Of a stretch of 64,000 nt of DNA, positions 7,763 through 63,944 are shown piece by piece. The position numbers and the translations under genes were made by a program. The notes under the pieces were generated by a model. It saw nothing but the letters and a program-made list of their open reading frames with translations. It was not told the origin of the DNA and made no database searches. How positions within the stretch are numbered: the stretch's first letter is position 1; every line of letters starts with the position of its first letter. Origin of the DNA: Candidatus Tumulicola sp. (GTDB lineage Bacteria > Vulcanimicrobiota > Vulcanimicrobiia > Eremiobacterales > Eremiobacteraceae); contig DATNNM010000010.1 in assembly GCA_035601835.1 (NCBI GenBank), forward strand, positions 1 to 64,000, in the 5' to 3' direction.

Positions 7763-8554
7763 ATGAGACATTTCGCAGCTCTACTCGCCGTCTTGCTGAT
7801 GGCGGCGCCGGCGTTTGGGAGTCCAATGCCCATGCCGACATCGGACTGTGGATCCACACTCGATGTCACCGGGCAGGGCACCTTTACTCGGCAGCCTGAT
7901 ATGGCCCAGATCAACGTTTCGTTGGTCGCTAACGCGGATTCGGCCGATAAGGCGATGTCCGCGAACAACGCCAAGTACGAAACGCTCAAGTCCCGCGTGC
8001 GCGCACTGGGGCTCAGCGACAGCGATGTGAAGACCACCTCGCTGAACATCAATTATTTTCCGCGCCCGTACCCACAGCCGCTCCCCATGTCCGGCTCGGC
8101 AGTAGGCTCCCCGCCACCCGCGCCCGCGGCGATCGCGCAACCGGCGCCCGCATACCCATACTGGCAACCGCAGCTAAGCGGTTATGTCGCGACGCGCACC
8201 GTCGTGATCACCACACTGAAGCCTGACACCGCGGCGAGTATCATGGATGCGGTCAGCGCGTCAGGCGTCAACGCGGTGAACGTCCAATTCGGCTTGCAAA
8301 ACCAGCGCGCCCTGTACCTAGAAGCGGTGTCGCTTGCGATGAAAGACGCCAAGCAAGAGGCGCGGGCGCTGACCTCCTCGGGAGATCTTCACCTGGGTCG
8401 CGTCAAGAGCGTGCGCATCGAGCCGACCTACGGCTACCCCCAACCGATGATGGGCAGAGCAGTACGTCCGGGCGTGCCGCCGGTCCCGACGGAGATCACG
8501 CCGCAGGAGATCACCGTGCGCGCCAGCGTCACGGTCACGTACTACATCAAGTAG
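7763..8554 (+). CDS. SIMPL (DUF541) domain periplasmic protein
   Basis: A 263-residue exported protein with a signal peptide (residues 1-20, AAPAFG). The mature part begins LDVTGQGTFTRQPDMAQINV, the SIMPL/DUF541 opening, followed by the usual helix (SADKAMSANN), the DVKTTSLNI segment and the C-terminal ITVRASVTVTYYI strand. A Pro-rich insertion lies near residues 95-130. SIMPL proteins are periplasmic or surface factors linked to oxidative-stress resistance; the exact role here is unknown. The frame is open far upstream, but ATG 7763 is the only start that gives a signal peptide. It ends 3 bp from the convergent lipoprotein gene. Confidence 0.82.
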   Translation: MRHFAALLAVLLMAAPAFGSPMPMPTSDCGSTLDVTGQGTFTRQPDMAQINVSLVANADSADKAMSANNAKYETLKSRVRALGLSDSDVKTTSLNINYFPRPYPQPLPMSGSAVGSPPPAPAAIAQPAPAYPYWQPQLSGYVATRTVVITTLKPDTAASIMDAVSASGVNAVNVQFGLQNQRALYLEAVSLAMKDAKQEARALTSSGDLHLGRVKSVRIEPTYGYPQPMMGRAVRPGVPPVPTEITPQEITVRASVTVTYYIK

Positions 8555-11817: not shown

Positions 11818-12510
11818 GTGCATCAGCAACTGCTGCTGGTGCTCGCGGTCCTGGCCGTCGGCATCTTTCACACGCTGGTTCCCGACCACTGGCTGCCGAT
11901 CACCGTGCTCGCCCGCCAGGCGAAGTGGAAACGTCTGCAGACAGCTGGGGCCGCAGCGCTGGCCGGCGTCGGCCACACGGTTTCGACCCTCGCGATCGGC
12001 GCGCTCATCTGGGCCGCAGGCGCGGTATTCGCCTTGCGCTTCGGGCATATGGTCTCGATCGCATCGAGCGTAGCGCTCGTGATCTTTGGGGCTTGGTTTG
12101 CGTTTACTGCGTTGCGCGAGCTGCGGCACGGCGGGGAAGCCGGACTAAAGTCCGGCATACCACATCCTCTCCTCCATCACGACGTCGTCGACACCGAGGC
12201 GGCGGCGAAGCTGACCGGGCACTTGAGCGCGAGCAGCCGAGCGCGTCTGACGCTGCTGCTCATCTTGGGCTCATCGCCGATGATCGAGGGACTGCCGGCC
12301 TTCCTTGCAGCAGGCCGGTTCGGACCTGGACTCCTGGCGATCATGTCGATCGTGTTCGGGCTGTCGACCATCGCGACGTACGTCTTCATGTGCGACCAAT
12401 CGACTCGCCTGCTGCAGCGCTTCTCGTTCGGACCGCTCGAGCGCTACGGCGAGGTGATCAGCGGCTGCGTCATCCTCGCCGTCGGCATCGCGTCCTTCTT
12501 CTGGCTCTGA
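11818..12510 (+). CDS. NicO/RcnA-like nickel-cobalt efflux membrane protein
   Basis: A 230-residue protein with about six transmembrane helices. The first helix contains H18-TLVP-D23-H24, the HX4DH signature of NiCoT/NicO transporters, and the second GVGHT. The central cytoplasmic loop has several His residues (HPLLHH), as the RcnA loop does. GTG start, 5 bp after rcnR. Unusually, residues 108-116 are encoded by a hairpin repeat inserted in frame in that loop. I infer efflux of nickel and/or cobalt under RcnR control; direction of transport is from context, not from the signature. Confidence 0.78.
   Translation: MHQQLLLVLAVLAVGIFHTLVPDHWLPITVLARQAKWKRLQTAGAAALAGVGHTVSTLAIGALIWAAGAVFALRFGHMVSIASSVALVIFGAWFAFTALRELRHGGEAGLKSGIPHPLLHHDVVDTEAAAKLTGHLSASSRARLTLLLILGSSPMIEGLPAFLAAGRFGPGLLAIMSIVFGLSTIATYVFMCDQSTRLLQRFSFGPLERYGEVISGCVILAVGIASFFWL
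12140..12163 (-). repeat. REP-like hairpin inside the NicO gene
   Basis: Perfect stem CCGGAC/GTCCGG around TAAA, followed by CATACCAC (GTGG foot on minus). The host gene stays in frame through it and reads AGLKSGIPH. The position is the cytoplasmic loop between helices 3 and 4. Confidence 0.85.
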
Positions 12511-21622: not shown

Positions 21623-23051
21623 ACGACCATTCGGAGCCTGCCGGCGTGTCCTTCACCGAGATGCCCGCCCGGCTCAACGCATTGCGCAGCGCATCGGATT
21701 GCGCGAAGTTCTTGGAGGCGCGCGCGACGTTGCGCAGCGCGATGACGCGCTCGATCAGCGCGGTGTCGCTGGAAACGGCGTCACCCGCGATCTTGCGCAG
21801 CATCGCCCTGGCCTCGTCGCTGAGATGCGCGACGGCGGATTTGCGCTCGAGATCTGCTTCCGCAGCGCTGCGCGGCAAGCCGAGGATATCGAGGCAGCGC
21901 TGGACGACGCCGAGGATGCTTGCATCGCCTTTGCGGCGCGCATCGCGCACTTGGGTCTGCAGCCACGCGACCGCGCCGCCGGTGTTGAGGTCGTCGTCGA
22001 GAAATGCGTCGAAGTCTTCCGGGGCTAAAGCCCCGGCACTACGAACGTGGCTGGGAGTGGGTAACTTTCGCAGATCGTCCAGCTCCTGATACAGCCCATG
22101 CAAGCCTTTGGCCGCGGCGTCGATCGCCTCTTCGGTGAAGTTGGTGGGCTTGCGGTATCCGGTCTGCAGGAACAGGTAGCGGACCGCGGCCGTCGAGTGC
22201 CGTTCGAGCAGCTCGGTGAGCGGGATGAAGTTGTTCAGCGACTTGCTCATCTTCTGCCCGTCGACCATCAACAGGCCCGCATGCATCCAGATGTTCGCCA
22301 TCGGGTGTTTGCCGGTGAAGCATTCGGTCTGCGCGACTTCGTTCTCGTGGTGCGGGAATATCAGATCGGCCGCGCCCCCGTGAATGTCGATTTGATCGCC
22401 AAGGTAACGGCGCGCCATCGCTGAGCACTCGACGTGCCACCCCGGGCGGCCCTCGCCCCACGGACTCGGCCAGGTGGGCTCGCCCGGCTTGGCCTTCTTC
22501 CACAAGGCGAAGTCGAGCGGACTGCGTTTGTCCTCGCGCACTTCCATGCGCACCCCGGCGCGCAGGTCTTCGATCTTCTGCCCGCTCAGCTCGCCGTAGT
22601 GCGGATCGGATTCCACGGAGAAATAGACGCCGTCGCCCGACTCGTACGCCGCGCCGCGCGCGATCAATCCGGCGATGACCTCCACGATCGCGGGGATCTC
22701 CCGCGTCGCTCTGGGCTCGACGTCAGGCGGCTTCAGGCCGAGCCGCTTCGCGCAAGCCTCGTATTCGCCGAAGAAGCGGTTCACCACCGCGTCCCAACTG
22801 GTGCCGTCCTTGCGCGCGCGATCGATGATCTTGTCGTCGATATCGGTGACGTTCTGCACGTACGTGACGGCGAGACCCTTGGCGCTCAGGTGCCGGCGCA
22901 GCACGTCGAAAGTCAGAAAGGTGCGCGCGTGGCCCAGGTGCGGATTGGATGAAGGCGTCATCCCGCACACGTAGATGCCGACCAAGCCCTGGACCAGCGG
23001 CTTGAGCTCGTCGAGCTTGCGGGTCAGACTGTTATAGAGTCGGAGTGCCAT
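21606..23051 (-). CDS. cysS: Cysteinyl-tRNA synthetase
   Basis: 481 residues. Class I signatures HLGH (38-41) and KMSKS (267-271) are intact, as are the zinc ligands C29, C209, H234 and E238 that discriminate cysteine. The C-terminal DALR-like and anticodon-binding parts follow. Residues 336-345 are encoded by a hairpin repeat inserted in frame between the catalytic core and the DDDLNT helix; the family has no such segment, so an essential enzyme tolerates a mobile insertion there. Overlaps cysE upstream by 20 bp and rlmB downstream by 17 bp. Confidence 0.96.
22019..22044 (-). repeat. REP-like hairpin inside cysS
   Basis: Perfect stem CCGGGGC/GCCCCGG around TAAA, then CACTACGA. On the coding strand it reads in frame as [10 protein letters not shown]. 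Confidence 0.88.
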
Positions 23052-34168: not shown

Positions 34169-34249
34169 CCCGAGCTAGCGCTCGGGACGGTACACCCGAA
34201 CTTCGTTCGGGTCGCTACATTCATCCGGGGCTAAAGCCCCGGCACTACA
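34169..34249 (-). repeat. Array of three REP-like hairpins between rpe and the PASTA gene
   Basis: Three head-to-tail units of 25-26 bp with different stems: 34169-34194 CCCGAGC/GCTCGGG then ACGGTACA; 34195-34219 CCCGAAC/GTTCGGG with a TTC loop, then TCGCTACA; 34225-34249 CCGGGGC/GCCCCGG with TAAA, then CACTACA. Same orientation in all three. Confidence 0.85.
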
Positions 34250-40293: not shown

Positions 40294-41289
40294 CTACGCG
40301 CTGCGCTCCCGCCACTGCTGCACGAAATCGGCGAGCGGCGGCAGATCTCTTGCGCGATCTGCTGCGTCGTCGAAGTGCTGCGCGGCTGCGCGCGCGGCCG
40401 CGACCCGAGCTCCACAGCGTTCTAGCGCGATGCGAAGTTCCGAAACTTCTTGCGCTTGCGCTTCTGGGACTTGCGCCTCGGAACGCGTGAATGCACGTCG
40501 GATGATCTCGCCCGCCCCACTCGGATCATTTTCGAGCGCCCACACGATCGGATAGGTCATCTTTTGGCGCGCGATGTCGCTGCCGGCAGGCTTGCCGGTA
40601 TGCTCCGTCGCTCCCCAGATGCCCAGCACGTCATCTTGGATCTGAAATCCAAGGCCAAACGAACGACCGATGCTCGAAGCCTGTTGCACGGCGGCCTCGC
40701 TCGCGCCGGCGCAGCGCGCTCCGAGGCGCCCGGCGCACGCGAAAAGCGCGGCCGTCTTGCCGCCGATCATCTCGAGGTACGCGGCGACGTGCAGCGCCGC
40801 GGCGCCTTCGGCATCCAGGTCGAGTGCCTGACCTTCGCACATCTGCACGTTCGCAGTTGCCAGATCCAGGCCCATATCGCGCGCCGCCTGTGCGCTCACG
40901 CCGGCTTCTTCTTCCACGCTTTCGAGCGCGAGGTGCGCAAGCGCACCGACCGCATCCCCCGCATTGATGCCGTGTGCGAGCCCGTAACGCGACCAAATCG
41001 TCTCGCGGCCGTGGCGCAGCGTGTCGCTGTCTTCGATGTCATCGTGGATCAGCGAGTAGTTGTGCAGCAATTCGATGGCGGTGCATGCGCCGTACGTCGC
41101 CGGCGCCGGTGCGCCGTGCGCCGCGGCTGCGGCGAGCACCATGCGCGGACGCAGGCGCTTGCCGCGCCGCGGCTTTTCGCGGCCTGCGTCGAGGTAACCG
41201 AAATGGTACGCGATCTGCGCAAAGACAGGGTTGTCGCGGGCGTGGCGCCGGAGAAAGGCTTCGAAGTATGCTTCGAAGGCGTCGAGCAT
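40294..41289 (-). CDS. Polyprenyl diphosphate synthase
   Basis: 331 residues. First Asp-rich motif HDDIED (DDxxD) and GKRLRPRM for diphosphate binding. The second is QIQDDVLGIWG, i.e. DDxxG; this form is known in some actinobacterial and chloroflexal enzymes and usually keeps activity. Residues just before the first motif (LLHNYSLIHDD) are small to medium, so chain length cannot be set by eye. Lies 3' of ispH on the same strand and upstream of the GT-C gene, so its product likely supplies the lipid carrier for it. Confidence 0.88.
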   Translation of the reverse strand: MLDAFEAYFEAFLRRHARDNPVFAQIAYHFGYLDAGREKPRRGKRLRPRMVLAAAAAHGAPAPATYGACTAIELLHNYSLIHDDIEDSDTLRHGRETIWSRYGLAHGINAGDAVGALAHLALESVEEEAGVSAQAARDMGLDLATANVQMCEGQALDLDAEGAAALHVAAYLEMIGGKTAALFACAGRLGARCAGASEAAVQQASSIGRSFGLGFQIQDDVLGIWGATEHTGKPAGSDIARQKMTYPIVWALENDPSGAGEIIRRAFTRSEAQVPEAQAQEVSELRIALERCGARVAAARAAAQHFDDAADRARDLPPLADFVQQWRERSA

Positions 41290-41292
41290 TTT

Positions 41293-41317
41293 CCGGGGCT
41301 AAAGCCCCGGCACTACA
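41293..41317 (-). repeat. REP-like hairpin overlapping the ispH stop
   Basis: Perfect stem CCGGGGC/GCCCCGG around TAAA, then CACTACA. The ispH stop codon TAG (41301-41299) is made from the loop, and the last six residues of IspH come from it. Confidence 0.88.
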
Positions 41318-42177
41318 GGCCCCGCCGTTGAATAGGCCGGTTCCGGGAACCAGTCGCGCAGGGTCTGCTCGATCTCATCGGCGAGGAAGCCGGGCGTCGA
41401 CGCGCCGGTCGCGATACCCACGCGCTCCGAGCCGTCGAACCACTCGCGCTTGAGATCGGCGACGCTCTCGACGAGATGCGCTTTGGCGCCTTCGACTTCG
41501 GAGATCTCGGCGAGATGGCGCGTGTTGGCCGATTTCGTACCGCCGACCACGACCATCACATCGACGTCGCGGGCGAGCTGCCGCGCGGAGAGCTGACGGC
41601 CCTGGGTGTCGGGGCAAATCGTGTTGTAGATGCGCGTCTCGTAATTAATCGCGGCGATCTTCGCCACCAACTCTTTGAACTTGTCTTCGTTGAGCGTGCT
41701 CTGCGACACGATCGCGATGCGCCGCATCCGCCGTATCGGCGTTTCGTCTTGCGGCCATTCGTTGAGGATCAACGCGCCAGGCACGTGACCCGCGATGCCG
41801 CGCACTTCGGGATGATTGGGATCACCGAGGATGATGACGCTACGGCCTTCGTCTTGCAGCTTCTTGGCGAGTTTCTGGGTGCGCGTCACCATCGGGCAGG
41901 TCGCGTCCACGACGCGCAGGCCCTTGGCTTCGGCCTTTTCCAGAGTCTGCGGCGGCAGGCCGTGCGCGCGCACGAAGAGCGTGCCGGCATCGATGTCGTC
42001 AAGGGATTCGGTGTTCTTGAGACCGCGATCTTCCAGCTCTTTGACGATGAGCGGATTGTGGACGATATTGCCCATGGTGTACACGTCTTCGCGCTCCGCC
42101 GTTTCGGCCAACGCGCGTTTGTACGTCAGCTCGACGCCGAAACAGAACCCCTGAGTGCGCGCCTTGAGTATCTCCAC
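41299..42177 (-). CDS. ispH: 4-hydroxy-3-methylbut-2-enyl diphosphate reductase
   Basis: 292 residues. Last step of the MEP pathway; iron-sulfur enzyme. Cluster cysteines C12 (GFCFGV), C94 (DATCPMV) and C188 (NTICPDT), and the substrate-site residues H40, H72, H122 and E124 are all present. GTG 42177 is preferred over the longer frame because AAGGAG lies 4 nt before it and the protein starts MEILKARTQGFCFGV. A hairpin repeat supplies the final PVVPGL and the stop codon. Confidence 0.95.
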   Translation of the reverse strand: MEILKARTQGFCFGVELTYKRALAETAEREDVYTMGNIVHNPLIVKELEDRGLKNTESLDDIDAGTLFVRAHGLPPQTLEKAEAKGLRVVDATCPMVTRTQKLAKKLQDEGRSVIILGDPNHPEVRGIAGHVPGALILNEWPQDETPIRRMRRIAIVSQSTLNEDKFKELVAKIAAINYETRIYNTICPDTQGRQLSARQLARDVDVMVVVGGTKSANTRHLAEISEVEGAKAHLVESVADLKREWFDGSERVGIATGASTPGFLADEIEQTLRDWFPEPAYSTAGPVVPGL

Positions 42178-43503: not shown

Positions 43504-43528
43504 CCGGGGCTAAAGCCCCGGCACTACA
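43504..43528 (-). repeat. REP-like hairpin between cmk and hutH
   Basis: Perfect stem CCGGGGC/GCCCCGG around TAAA, then CACTACA. Lies in the divergent 120-bp gap. Confidence 0.88.
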
Positions 43529-48432: not shown

Positions 48433-48497
48433 CCGGACTAAAGTCCGGCATACCACATATCACGATACCACACCGGGGCTAAAGCCCCGGCACTACA
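48433..48497 (-). repeat. Two REP-like hairpins of different type, between mccA and HMG-CoA lyase
   Basis: 48433-48456: stem CCGGAC/GTCCGG around TAAA, then CATACCAC (GTGG foot). 48473-48497: stem CCGGGGC/GCCCCGG around TAAA, then CACTACA (GTAG foot). Same orientation. Confidence 0.87.
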
Positions 48498-51248: not shown

Positions 51249-51258
51249 GATCACCTCT

Positions 51259-51317
51259 CCGAGCTCGCTTCGCTCGCTCGGAACACTACATCCCGGGGCT
51301 AAAGCCCCGGCACTACA
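51259..51317 (-). repeat. Two REP-like hairpins of different type, between mccB and the hydratase gene
   Basis: 51259-51290: outer stem CCGAGC/GCTCGG with a TCGCTTCGCTC centre, then AACACTACA; its reverse complement, with one change, recurs at 62421-62452. 51293-51317: stem CCGGGGC/GCCCCGG around TAAA, then CACTACA. Confidence 0.87.
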
Positions 51318-60533: not shown

Positions 60534-60954
60534 CTAGTTTGTCTCTCCTTGTTAGGGGCGGTTTAACCCCCAACCACCTGTTCGACGCCCACCCCCTACT
60601 ACATTCTAAACGAAAGGGGAGGGCGAATCGCTCGCCTCCCCTGAGATTTTCCCGAGCTTCGCTCGGGACGCTACATAAAAAGTATTTTCGATTGCAAGCC
60701 CCAAGCGATCTCGGTCCTTGCTGTACTGGTGCCCGGTCATCCCGGGAGACGTATCGGCTTTCGCTGGATCGGGCAATGGCCCAATCGCTACGCCCGGGTT
60801 ACGCAACTCGGATGCGGGTCGGTGCCTGCGACCCGCTCGCCGATCAGTACGCGTCGGAGCGGCCCCTTGAGGCTTAATCGGATGATACGCTCGATGCATT
60901 TGCATGTCAAGTCAGGCGACGGACTTTCATGTCGCATGCGCGAAATGTTTGCGC
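60534..60954. other. Gene-free region between clpC and folK-folE2
   Basis: 421 bp upstream of two divergent genes. It holds a long hairpin at 60615-60642 (AGGGGAGGGCGA / TCGCCTCCCCT with one bulged G), one REP-like hairpin at 60651-60675, and from about 60740 to 60880 a GC-rich tract with several nested palindromes (for instance GGGTCGG..CCTGCGACCC). The tract looks structured but I cannot match it to a riboswitch. Confidence 0.5.
60651..60675 (-). repeat. REP-like hairpin upstream of clpC
   Basis: Stem CCCGAGC/GCTCGGG with a TTC loop, followed by ACGCTACA. It is the CTTCG-loop subtype. Confidence 0.83.
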
Positions 60955-62457
60955 ATGACGGAATCGCGCCATTTCGTAGCGCTCGCACTCGGTTCCAACT
61001 TGGGCGACCGGCAAGGCAACCTTGCCGCTGCGCTGCAACAACTGCGTTCGGCTGTGGATATCTCGCGCATCTCGTCGCTCTATGAAACCGCGCCGGTGGG
61101 CTTCGCGCAGCAGCCCGATTTTCTTAACTTGACATGCGTCGGCAGCACTTTGCTCGAGCCGCGGGCACTGCGCGATGCGATGCTGCGCGCCGAGCGTTTT
61201 GTGGGCCGCGCAGCGTCGTTCCCGATGGGCCCGCGCGCGATCGACATCGATTTGCTGCTGTACGACGATCTGGTGCTGCGCGAACCGGATCTGACTATTC
61301 CGCACCCGCGCATGACCGAGCGCGCCTTCGTGCTGGTGCCGCTCGCCGAGATCGCGCCGGATGTTGTGCACCCGGTCGCTCGCCGCAGCGTTCGCGAGTT
61401 GGCGGCCGCGGTGGACAGCGGGGGCGTGCGGCGTTGCGAGGGCGGGTTGGTCGCGCGCATCCGGCACGACATGCAGGCGCAGCGGCCGGAAGTACCGCTG
61501 GCGCTGAACCGAGCCGGCGTTTCGGGCGTGAAAAGCGTGCTCAATGTGGCCTTTGCAGGCAGCCGGCAGACGAGCACGGTGGCGACTATCGACGTGTACG
61601 CCGACCTCGACGCGCAGCACAGCGGGGTGCACATGTCGCGTTTCTCTCAGGATTTAGAGGACGCACTTGCCGATATCGCGCGGGAACCGGCGAAGGGCAT
61701 CGATTCATTCGCCGTAACGCTGGCCGAGCGGGTGGTGTCGAGCCAGCATGCGCGCGTGGCCCATGTCGAGATGCGAGCGGAGATCGCGCTGCCGCGCTAC
61801 ACGCCGGCCAGCGCGATTCCCACGCATCAATTCTACGACGTTCGCGGCGTGGCGGTCGTCGGCGCGGACTTTCGACGCAGCTTGCTGGGCGTCGAGGCGT
61901 TTGGCATCACGGCCTGCCCGTGCGCGCAATCCATGGTGGCGGAGCAGTCGCGCGAGCGCTTGCTCGCGGAGGGATTCTCGGAAGAACAGATCCGACGGGT
62001 TTTGGACGTCGTGCCCATCGCCACGCACAACCAGCGCAGCCGAGGAACGCTTCTCATCGGCGGCGATGCGAGTTTAGACATCCCGGCGATGGTGGAGATC
62101 GTGGAGCAATCCATGTCGTCGGAGACCTACGATTTGTTGAAGCGGCCGGATGAGCTCTTCGTGGTCAACAAGGCGCATCGGCAGCCGCGTTTCGTCGAGG
62201 ATTGCGTGCGTGAGATGCTGCGCTATTCGCACGACGCGCTCGCCGCAGCGCCGGACGATGCGTTCGTGCTCGCGCGTCAGGTGAATTTCGAGAGCATCCA
62301 CAAGCACGACGCCGTGGCGGAATCGTGCGCCATGCTCGGCGAATTGCGCCGCGAACTGCGCGGCGAGACGGGGGTGTCGCACACCACCCTCGAACAATGG
62401 TTGCATATCAGCAAGGGCGATGTAGTGTACCGAGCGAGCGAAGCGAGCTCGGACTAG
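60955..62457 (+). CDS. FolK-FolE2 fusion: HPPK plus type IB GTP cyclohydrolase
   Basis: 500 residues. Residues 5-155 are HPPK: ALGSNLGDRQGNL, FAQQPDFLNL, and PMGPRAIDIDLLLYDD, with the two metal Asp residues D97 and D99. Residues 175-490 are FolE2 (DUF198): the HMSRFS segment, ATHNQRSRGTL, and CPCAQSM with Cys 321 and 323. The two activities are the first and third-to-last steps to dihydropteroate, so the fusion links both ends of pterin supply. The last 12 residues come from a hairpin repeat. ATG 60955 is chosen; two upstream ATGs are possible. Confidence 0.88.
   Translation: MTESRHFVALALGSNLGDRQGNLAAALQQLRSAVDISRISSLYETAPVGFAQQPDFLNLTCVGSTLLEPRALRDAMLRAERFVGRAASFPMGPRAIDIDLLLYDDLVLREPDLTIPHPRMTERAFVLVPLAEIAPDVVHPVARRSVRELAAAVDSGGVRRCEGGLVARIRHDMQAQRPEVPLALNRAGVSGVKSVLNVAFAGSRQTSTVATIDVYADLDAQHSGVHMSRFSQDLEDALADIAREPAKGIDSFAVTLAERVVSSQHARVAHVEMRAEIALPRYTPASAIPTHQFYDVRGVAVVGADFRRSLLGVEAFGITACPCAQSMVAEQSRERLLAEGFSEEQIRRVLDVVPIATHNQRSRGTLLIGGDASLDIPAMVEIVEQSMSSETYDLLKRPDELFVVNKAHRQPRFVEDCVREMLRYSHDALAAAPDDAFVLARQVNFESIHKHDAVAESCAMLGELRRELRGETGVSHTTLEQWLHISKGDVVYRASEASSD
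62421..62452 (+). repeat. REP-like hairpin, reversed, forming the folK-folE2 end
   Basis: Reverse complement of the element at 51259-51290 except for one base: TGTAGTGTA then CCGAGC..GCTCGG. It is the only element of 21 in this orientation. It codes for residues 489-499 and lies just before the stop. Confidence 0.85.
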
Positions 62458-62467
62458 GACCAAACTT

Positions 62468-63712
62468 ATGTGGGATTGGGAACGCGCCTCCGTCCCCTTC
62501 CAGCCGATCTATCGCCGGCGGCTGTGGCGCCGCCGTCTGCTCGTGTTCTGCTCAGCCCTTGCGATCGTCGTTCCGTACCTGCTCATCCATCATCAACGCG
62601 AAACCACGCCGGTCGGTGCGCGCGTTTTTGACGACGTCACGACGGCGATCTCCATGCGCTACTTCGACTGGTCGTATCACGGGCTCGATTGGAACGCCCT
62701 GACGCGCCAATATCGTCCGCTTGTCGCCGCCGCCCCCACGGTCGAGCGCCGCTACGCGCTCATGCGGCAAATGCTGCGCCGCTTGGGCGATAGCCATACG
62801 CTCGTCTACTCGCCGTCGCAGTTGAAGCCACCCGATCCGCTGCCGCGCCACGGCATCTTCGGCATGACGGCAGGCCGGGCCGGCGATCCCAGCTCGATCG
62901 TGGACTGGAAGTCGCTTTCGCGCGACGTCGGATATCTTCGACTCGGCTCGTTCCCCAATGCGATCGAACCCGTGCTCGGCTGGGCCATGGCCGATGTGGG
63001 CCGCAAGTCCAAGCTGATCCTGGATCTGCGCGGCAACCCGGGCGGCTTGGTCGATTCGGTGGACAGCGCCGCCGGCGTTTTCTTGCCGGCCGGCACGTTG
63101 ATCTCGACCGGTCTGCGCCGCTACCACTTCTTCGGCCCGCAGCGCTTTGTCGCATCCGATAGCGTCGGGGCGCGCTACAATGGTCGTCTTGTCGTCTTGG
63201 TGGATAGGGGCAGCCGCAGCGGTGCTGAGTCCCTGGCGCGCGCGCTGCAGTATTATCATCGGGCGACGATCGTCGGAACGCGCACGGCGGGCAAGGTGCT
63301 GGGCGTCGATCTCGAGATCAATCTCGCGGACGGCGGCATGCTGCGCGTGGCCACGCTGGACATGCGCGCGCCGGACGGCCGGCGTTTGGAAGGCCGCGGC
63401 GTCACGCCGGATGTGTTTGTTGCGGCGTCGCGTCGCCGCGACGCGCAGCTCGATAGAGCGTTTCAACTGCTCCAAATGTCACGGCCTCTTTGGAGCGCGT
63501 CACGGGACTCGGCGGGGTCTTTTTCAAGTCGAGAGACCCTAAGCGGCTCTACGCATGGTACGAAAAGCACCTCGGGATCAGGCAGCCGTCCGGCTCGGGT
63601 GCGGAATTTCACTGGCGCGACGCCGAGGATGGATCGCCGGGCACGACGGCTTGGGCGATCTTCGACGAGAGCAGTGATTATTTCGATCCCAGCCGCGCAG
63701 GCTTCATGTTGA
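62468..63712 (+). CDS. S41 family (C-terminal-processing-type) peptidase, exported, with a suspect C-terminal tail
   Basis: 414 residues. N-terminal anchor helix (about 22-41), tail-interacting helical domain, and the S41 core: LRGNPGG, the Ser nucleophile in VDRGSRSGAESLA and the Lys in GTRTAGKVLG. It lacks a recognisable PDZ domain between anchor and core. The catalytic domain ends near residue 340; the last 75 residues read antisense-like, Arg/Ser-rich sequence over the start of the next gene for 223 bp. The natural stop has probably been lost by an indel near 63480. Confidence 0.75.
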   Translation: MWDWERASVPFQPIYRRRLWRRRLLVFCSALAIVVPYLLIHHQRETTPVGARVFDDVTTAISMRYFDWSYHGLDWNALTRQYRPLVAAAPTVERRYALMRQMLRRLGDSHTLVYSPSQLKPPDPLPRHGIFGMTAGRAGDPSSIVDWKSLSRDVGYLRLGSFPNAIEPVLGWAMADVGRKSKLILDLRGNPGGLVDSVDSAAGVFLPAGTLISTGLRRYHFFGPQRFVASDSVGARYNGRLVVLVDRGSRSGAESLARALQYYHRATIVGTRTAGKVLGVDLEINLADGGMLRVATLDMRAPDGRRLEGRGVTPDVFVAASRRRDAQLDRAFQLLQMSRPLWSASRDSAGSFSSRETLSGSTHGTKSTSGSGSRPARVRNFTGATPRMDRRARRLGRSSTRAVIISIPAAQASC

Positions 63713-63873
63713 ACTATCGCGTTGATGATCTCGATGCCGTGCTCGACGCGTTGCGAGCGGAGGGCGTTGAGATCGATCCGAAGCGCGAAGAATACGACTT
63801 CGGGCGCTTCGCGTGGATCATGGATCCGGATGGGAATCGGATCGAGTTGTGGGAGCCGAAAAACCGGGGCTGA
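63490..63873 (+). CDS. VOC (glyoxalase-like) family protein
   Basis: 127 residues starting at TTG 63490: GLGGVFFKSRDPKRLYAWYEKHLGI, then YRVDDLDAVLDALRAEGVEI and FAWIMDPDGNRIELWEP, a classic single-domain VOC fold with C-terminal metal Glu. The stop codon TGA is formed by the loop of a hairpin repeat. Substrate unknown. Overlaps the S41 reading frame. Confidence 0.85.
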   Translation: MERVTGLGGVFFKSRDPKRLYAWYEKHLGIRQPSGSGAEFHWRDAEDGSPGTTAWAIFDESSDYFDPSRAGFMLNYRVDDLDAVLDALRAEGVEIDPKREEYDFGRFAWIMDPDGNRIELWEPKNRG

Positions 63874-63944
63874 AGCCCCGGCACTACATCTCCGAGCTCG
63901 CTTCGCTCGGAACGCTACACCCGAGCTTCGCTCGGGTCGCTACA
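63864..63944 (-). repeat. Array of three REP-like hairpins at the VOC gene end
   Basis: 63864-63888: stem CCGGGGC/GCCCCGG around TGAA, then CACTACA; 63892-63919: CCGAGC...GCTCGG with a TCGCTTC-type centre, then AACGCTACA; 63920-63944: CCCGAGC/GCTCGGG with TTC, then TCGCTACA. All in the same orientation, a second array like the one at 34.2 kb. Confidence 0.87.

Follow-up and report, generated by a model that had tools for sequence, protein, structure and literature searches.

Can a short hairpin repeat give a gene its stop codon and a protein its last residues, and, if so, is the repeat kept for that purpose? This question is raised by the window (the whole 64,000-nucleotide stretch of Candidatus Tumulicola sp. 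DNA analyzed here), in which ispH (LytB family; 41299-42177, minus strand; 292 aa by the model start; Pfam PF02401, E 3e-81) ends in the loop of a palindromic repeat at 41293-41317. This repeat, on the minus strand, is an exact consensus copy of a family that we refer to as family A; its plus strand reads CCGGGGCTAAAGCCCCGGCACTACA, its minus strand reads TGTAG, TG, CCGGGGC, TTTA and GCCCCGG in succession, and its GTAG head points towards the end of ispH. Read in the ispH frame, the element encodes GTA GTG CCG GGG CTT (VVPGL), followed by the stop TAG at 41301-41299 (CTA at 41299-41301 on the plus strand), and a polyprenyl synthetase gene (40294-41289, minus strand; Pfam PF00348) starts 4 nt past the element. 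The sequence-only reading had proposed that three genes of the window end in such repeats, and that the repeat may be a portable stop plus hairpin. Its account of ispH, with the stop and the last codons both coming from the element, is borne out by this frame, and so is its account of a glyoxalase/VOC-family gene (63490-63873, plus strand; Pfam PF00903, glyoxalase fold), whose TGA at 63871-63873 sits in the CTGAAG loop of a family-A copy at 63864-63888 (plus strand). The element supplies the final RG of this protein (...WEPKNRG*) and its stop, and VOC orthologues terminate at nearly the same position.

For the third gene, a folK-folE2 fusion (60904-62457, plus strand; Pfam HPPK and GCHY-1) thought to end in a reversed copy of the same element, the claim holds in part. 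Its end, ...VVYRASEASSD, is encoded by a repeat and is unlike that of all orthologues compared, but the repeat (35 bp, 62419-62453, minus strand; the inverted-repeat partner of 51258-51292) belongs to a sister family with a TTCG-type loop, and the TAG at 62455-62457 lies just outside it. Thus, the tail is repeat-coded in all three genes, but the stop comes from the element in only two. The family-A motif has seven copies in the window versus none in 100 shuffles. Another of these copies, with a CTACG end (22019-22043, plus strand), is read through in frame inside cysS, where, by alignment, it falls within a linker that differs in length among relatives, and the other four (34225-34249, 43504-43528, 48473-48497, and 51293-51317, all plus strand) are intergenic. 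A sister family with a GTGG head (CCGGACTAAAGTCCGGCATACCACA) is also present in the window, at 524-539, 12140-12155, and 48433-48448.

The window repeat is a GTAG-type REP element. Family A occurs at 237 places in the 2.57-Mb genome when up to 3 mismatches are allowed, versus 0 for the backwards pattern, and all families together comprise 447 elements in 2.42 Mb. The stems vary, while the loop CTAAAG and the tail CTAC or CCAC are constant; read on the opposite strand, this tail is a GTAG or GTGG head. The head lies beside a short perfect palindrome and is GTAG in family A and GTGG in the sister families. The elements are mostly extragenic and located behind genes (40 of the 447 are intragenic), and gaps between convergent and tandem genes are favored over divergent ones. 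A PF01797 search found one Y1-type transposase gene in the genome, for all REP families together; this gene encodes a REP-associated tyrosine transposase, or RAYT (NCBIfam NF047646, score 109.5 bits, cut-off 80), and family-A copies in opposite orientation lie on either side of it. With its GTAG/GTGG head, palindrome, and RAYT with inverted flanking copies, this is by definition a REP/RAYT system. Recognisable copies were found in only 1 out of 40 relatives (two, with both stem sides changed together), which indicates that the insertions are recent. No clear target-site duplication was found at the elements, and when the joined flanks were read in search of the old stop, the distance to the next stop in frame varied widely (median 16 codons).

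The system resembles the REPtrons (Nunvar et al., 2010, PMC2817692; TnpAREP study 2021, PMC8266576) in its RAYT flanked by inverted REPs, its GT(A/G)G heads and its perfect palindromes, and its TTTA loop recurs in a Marinomonas REP that has been examined in vitro (PMC8266576). Unlike in REPtrons, neighboring copies nearly all share their orientation (62 out of 68 pairs less than 120 nt apart) rather than forming inverted doublets (BIMEs or REPINs). It is also like the GTAG-tagged REPs of Di Nocera et al. (2013, PMC3733652), which, in the parts of that paper compared here, have a GTAG end, a short palindrome and sites behind unidirectional and convergent genes. Literature searches on REPs of Eremiobacterota returned nothing relevant.

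To count gene ends inside elements, we called genes with a simple codon-context model of our own on stretches of the genome, rather than taking them from a reference annotation. The first of two separate sets held 201 elements in 1.25 Mb, and the second 130 elements in 0.77 Mb. In both, every gene end inside an element coincides with one of the element's own stop codons, and together the sets contained 44 such stops versus 7.4 expected from the genome-wide gene-end density. Once further stretches had been added, to reach 2.42 Mb with 447 elements and 2097 genes, the count rose to 48 stops, in 42 elements, versus 9.9 expected, which is the excess that the sequence-only reading had called for, about 5-fold above the genome average. 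This gene-end enrichment arises because the elements habitually sit behind genes: per position, there are about 4 gene ends just upstream of an element, versus 1.2 inside it on the GTAG side and 0.6 on the other side. As a source of stops, the loop accounts for only half of the cases (24), made up of 10 TTTAG stops and 14 stops on the opposite strand, mostly TAA; the other 24 come from the GTAG head, as its TAG. One element (7932-7956, minus strand, of C11:360001-380000) stops two convergent genes, one with TAA and the other, on the opposite strand, with TAG.

Near gene ends, 30 out of the 31 frames that enter an element from the head side were stopped, versus two thirds expected (p 6e-5), and from the other side 14 out of 22 were stopped within 150 nt, versus one third expected (p 0.003). 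We infer that this surplus reflects the removal of read-through insertions, and it could in part be a product of the 150 nt limit used in counting read-through.

We then compared 41 host genes with their orthologues in four genomes belonging to the same family, none of which is a strain-level relative; no clean empty site was seen. Hosts stopped in the loop from the head side are longer than their orthologues (GyrA +7, transketolase +7, ending NVVPGL, and IspH about +7), and the element-coded tail of IspH is absent from its orthologues. MGMT is longer by about 4 to 5 residues and CoaE by a few. Hosts stopped in the GTAG head keep nearly the length of their orthologues (roughly -2 to +6). The only reason why several proteins share the tail VVPGL or the end RG is that it is coded by the element. 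In addition, a 466-residue protein near the element at 11925-11949 of C7:1-20000 ends GNVVPGLGNVVPGL, as if an element-coded tail had been doubled.

Taken together, our findings point to a GTAG-type REP that probably inserts behind or at gene ends and there supplies the first in-frame stop and a short tail, which is presumably tolerated because it is short and harmless. We propose that the element is a palindrome that does not move on its own but is, most likely, spread by the single RAYT of the genome, and that copies would build up right behind genes, the GTAG end in most cases turned towards the gene. A copy that lands at a gene end, or a few codons before it, would interrupt the frame, and the first in-frame stop would then lie inside the element, either as the TAG of the GTAG head, as the TTTAG of the loop, or as a loop stop on the other strand (mostly TAA). 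The codons of the element would thereby become the new protein tail, be it VVPGL, RG or almost nothing. Such insertions presumably persist where the change is short and harmless, and longer read-through insertions would mostly be removed by purifying selection.

An improbable alternative is that the stops of the GTAG heads came first, with GTAG acting as a target or guide of the transposase, so that genes ending in ...GTAG attract insertions behind their own stop. The rpoC gene (C8:100001-120000) fits this idea in that it ends ATG TAG in an element head and its orthologues, which lack the element, also end ATG TAG; the rpoC stop may therefore be older than its element. GTAG is a guide-like motif of TnpAREP enzymes (PMC8266576), head stops alter protein length little, and they outnumber head-side loop stops by 22 to 8 in the first and second sets (p 0.016). 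However, genes stopped in the head mostly have orthologues with a TGA or TAA stop, or with their end at a different codon, and the loop stops and their tails are left unexplained.

Still less probable is the portable stop plus hairpin of the sequence-only reading, taken here as an element selected for ending translation and shaping the mRNA 3' end. Three observations are consistent with it. The elements lie nearer to the gene end than under uniform placement in the gap (24 out of 48 within 15 nt, versus 28% expected), and in tandem gaps that hold a single element the head is turned towards the gene by 62:17. The hairpin itself is strong, at -15.7 kcal/mol. In E. coli, translation is lowered by REPs that lie less than 15 nt from a stop codon (work summarized in PMC12306157). 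Yet, a dedicated stop cassette should place in-frame stops behind genes more often than chance, and only 42 out of 70 downstream family-A elements carry one, versus 46.7 (two thirds) under no preference. Moreover, about 90% of the 447 elements supply no stop, gene ends are denser upstream of the elements than inside them, and the orientation is biased also where the frame cannot matter, in elements that lie wholly behind the gene. Neither strand has a run of U in the bases flanking the hairpin, as an intrinsic (rho-independent) terminator would. A dedicated portable stop thus finds no support in the genome. A backup-stop function was also considered, and the hint of it in the frame counts of the first set was absent from the second. 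By analogy with the E. coli REPs near stop codons, a role of the element in mRNA stability or translation is possible.

Chance overlap, in which the elements are simply numerous and every gene has to end at some point, is very improbable, since the stops use the element's own codons, the tails are missing in orthologues, and 48 stops were found versus 9.9 expected, although gene ends per position are indeed denser just outside the elements than inside.

Insertion of a REP behind or at a gene end, with its stop and short tail, is an effect that is already known, and we add one more case, described more precisely. According to the parts of Di Nocera et al. (2013, PMC3733652) compared here, the termini of GTAG-tagged REPs often provide a TAG stop; relative to those parts, the loop stops, the frame counts, and the comparison of C-terminal lengths differ, as does the organism, a member of the Eremiobacterota. 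In enterobacterial RU-1 (Delihas, 2007, PMC2759123), insertion at the 3' end of a gene abolishes the normal stop, and the repeat then encodes a new C-terminal tail. RU-1 is 127 bp long, adds about 35 residues, and is described without a GTAG or RAYT link, whereas the element here has 25 bp, adds 0 to about 6 residues, and has both a GTAG head and a RAYT. What emerges is a 25-bp mobile palindrome that has repeatedly given core proteins (GyrA, transketolase, IspH, and CoaE) new C-termini, apparently without inactivating them, in an uncultured phylum, and counts of codon, frame, and length change are now given for an effect that was previously mentioned mainly in passing.

The orientation of the elements follows a different rule in one part of the genome. 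We call polar region about 0.55 Mb in five contigs: C8, C10 (the contig of the window), C15, the greater part of the second half of C9 (beyond 60 kb), and the end of C12 (beyond 180 kb), with limits that were drawn after the data had been seen. It holds 217 elements, or 39 per 100 kb, versus 12 per 100 kb elsewhere, and 208 of the 217 (96%) have the majority orientation of their contig, whatever the direction of the genes. Consistent with this, 111 out of 117 element clusters in the region are uniform in orientation, and the regional orientation is kept between convergent pairs (18:2), at minority-strand genes (7:1), and in intragenic copies (11:0). A pattern search of the genome gave the same strand runs among the listed places on C8, C9, and C10. 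Outside the polar region, the head faces the gene in tandem genes (77:24), and orientation between convergent pairs is random (22:20); on this ground, replication strand was rejected as an explanation for the general bias there. The first 60 kb of C9 (C9:1-60000) contain no REP of any kind and carry a terminase-like gene, recognized by protein inspection; this stretch may be a prophage.

GC skew of 20-kb stretches offers no explanation of element orientation. The dnaA gene is on C3, and the gene order of relatives, which we used to place the polar region, is shuffled. We tentatively suggest, while leaning slightly against it, that there is a second mode of REP insertion or retention, strand-specific and acting at the chromosome level, linked to replication strand or segregation. 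Such a mode is absent from the descriptions in those parts of the REP literature that were compared. The contrast between an orientation that follows transcription and one that is region-wide would allow ideas on RAYT/REP insertion to be tested on sequence alone. Elements that supply a stop are rarer in the polar region than outside it (11 out of 217 versus 31 out of 230, p 0.003).
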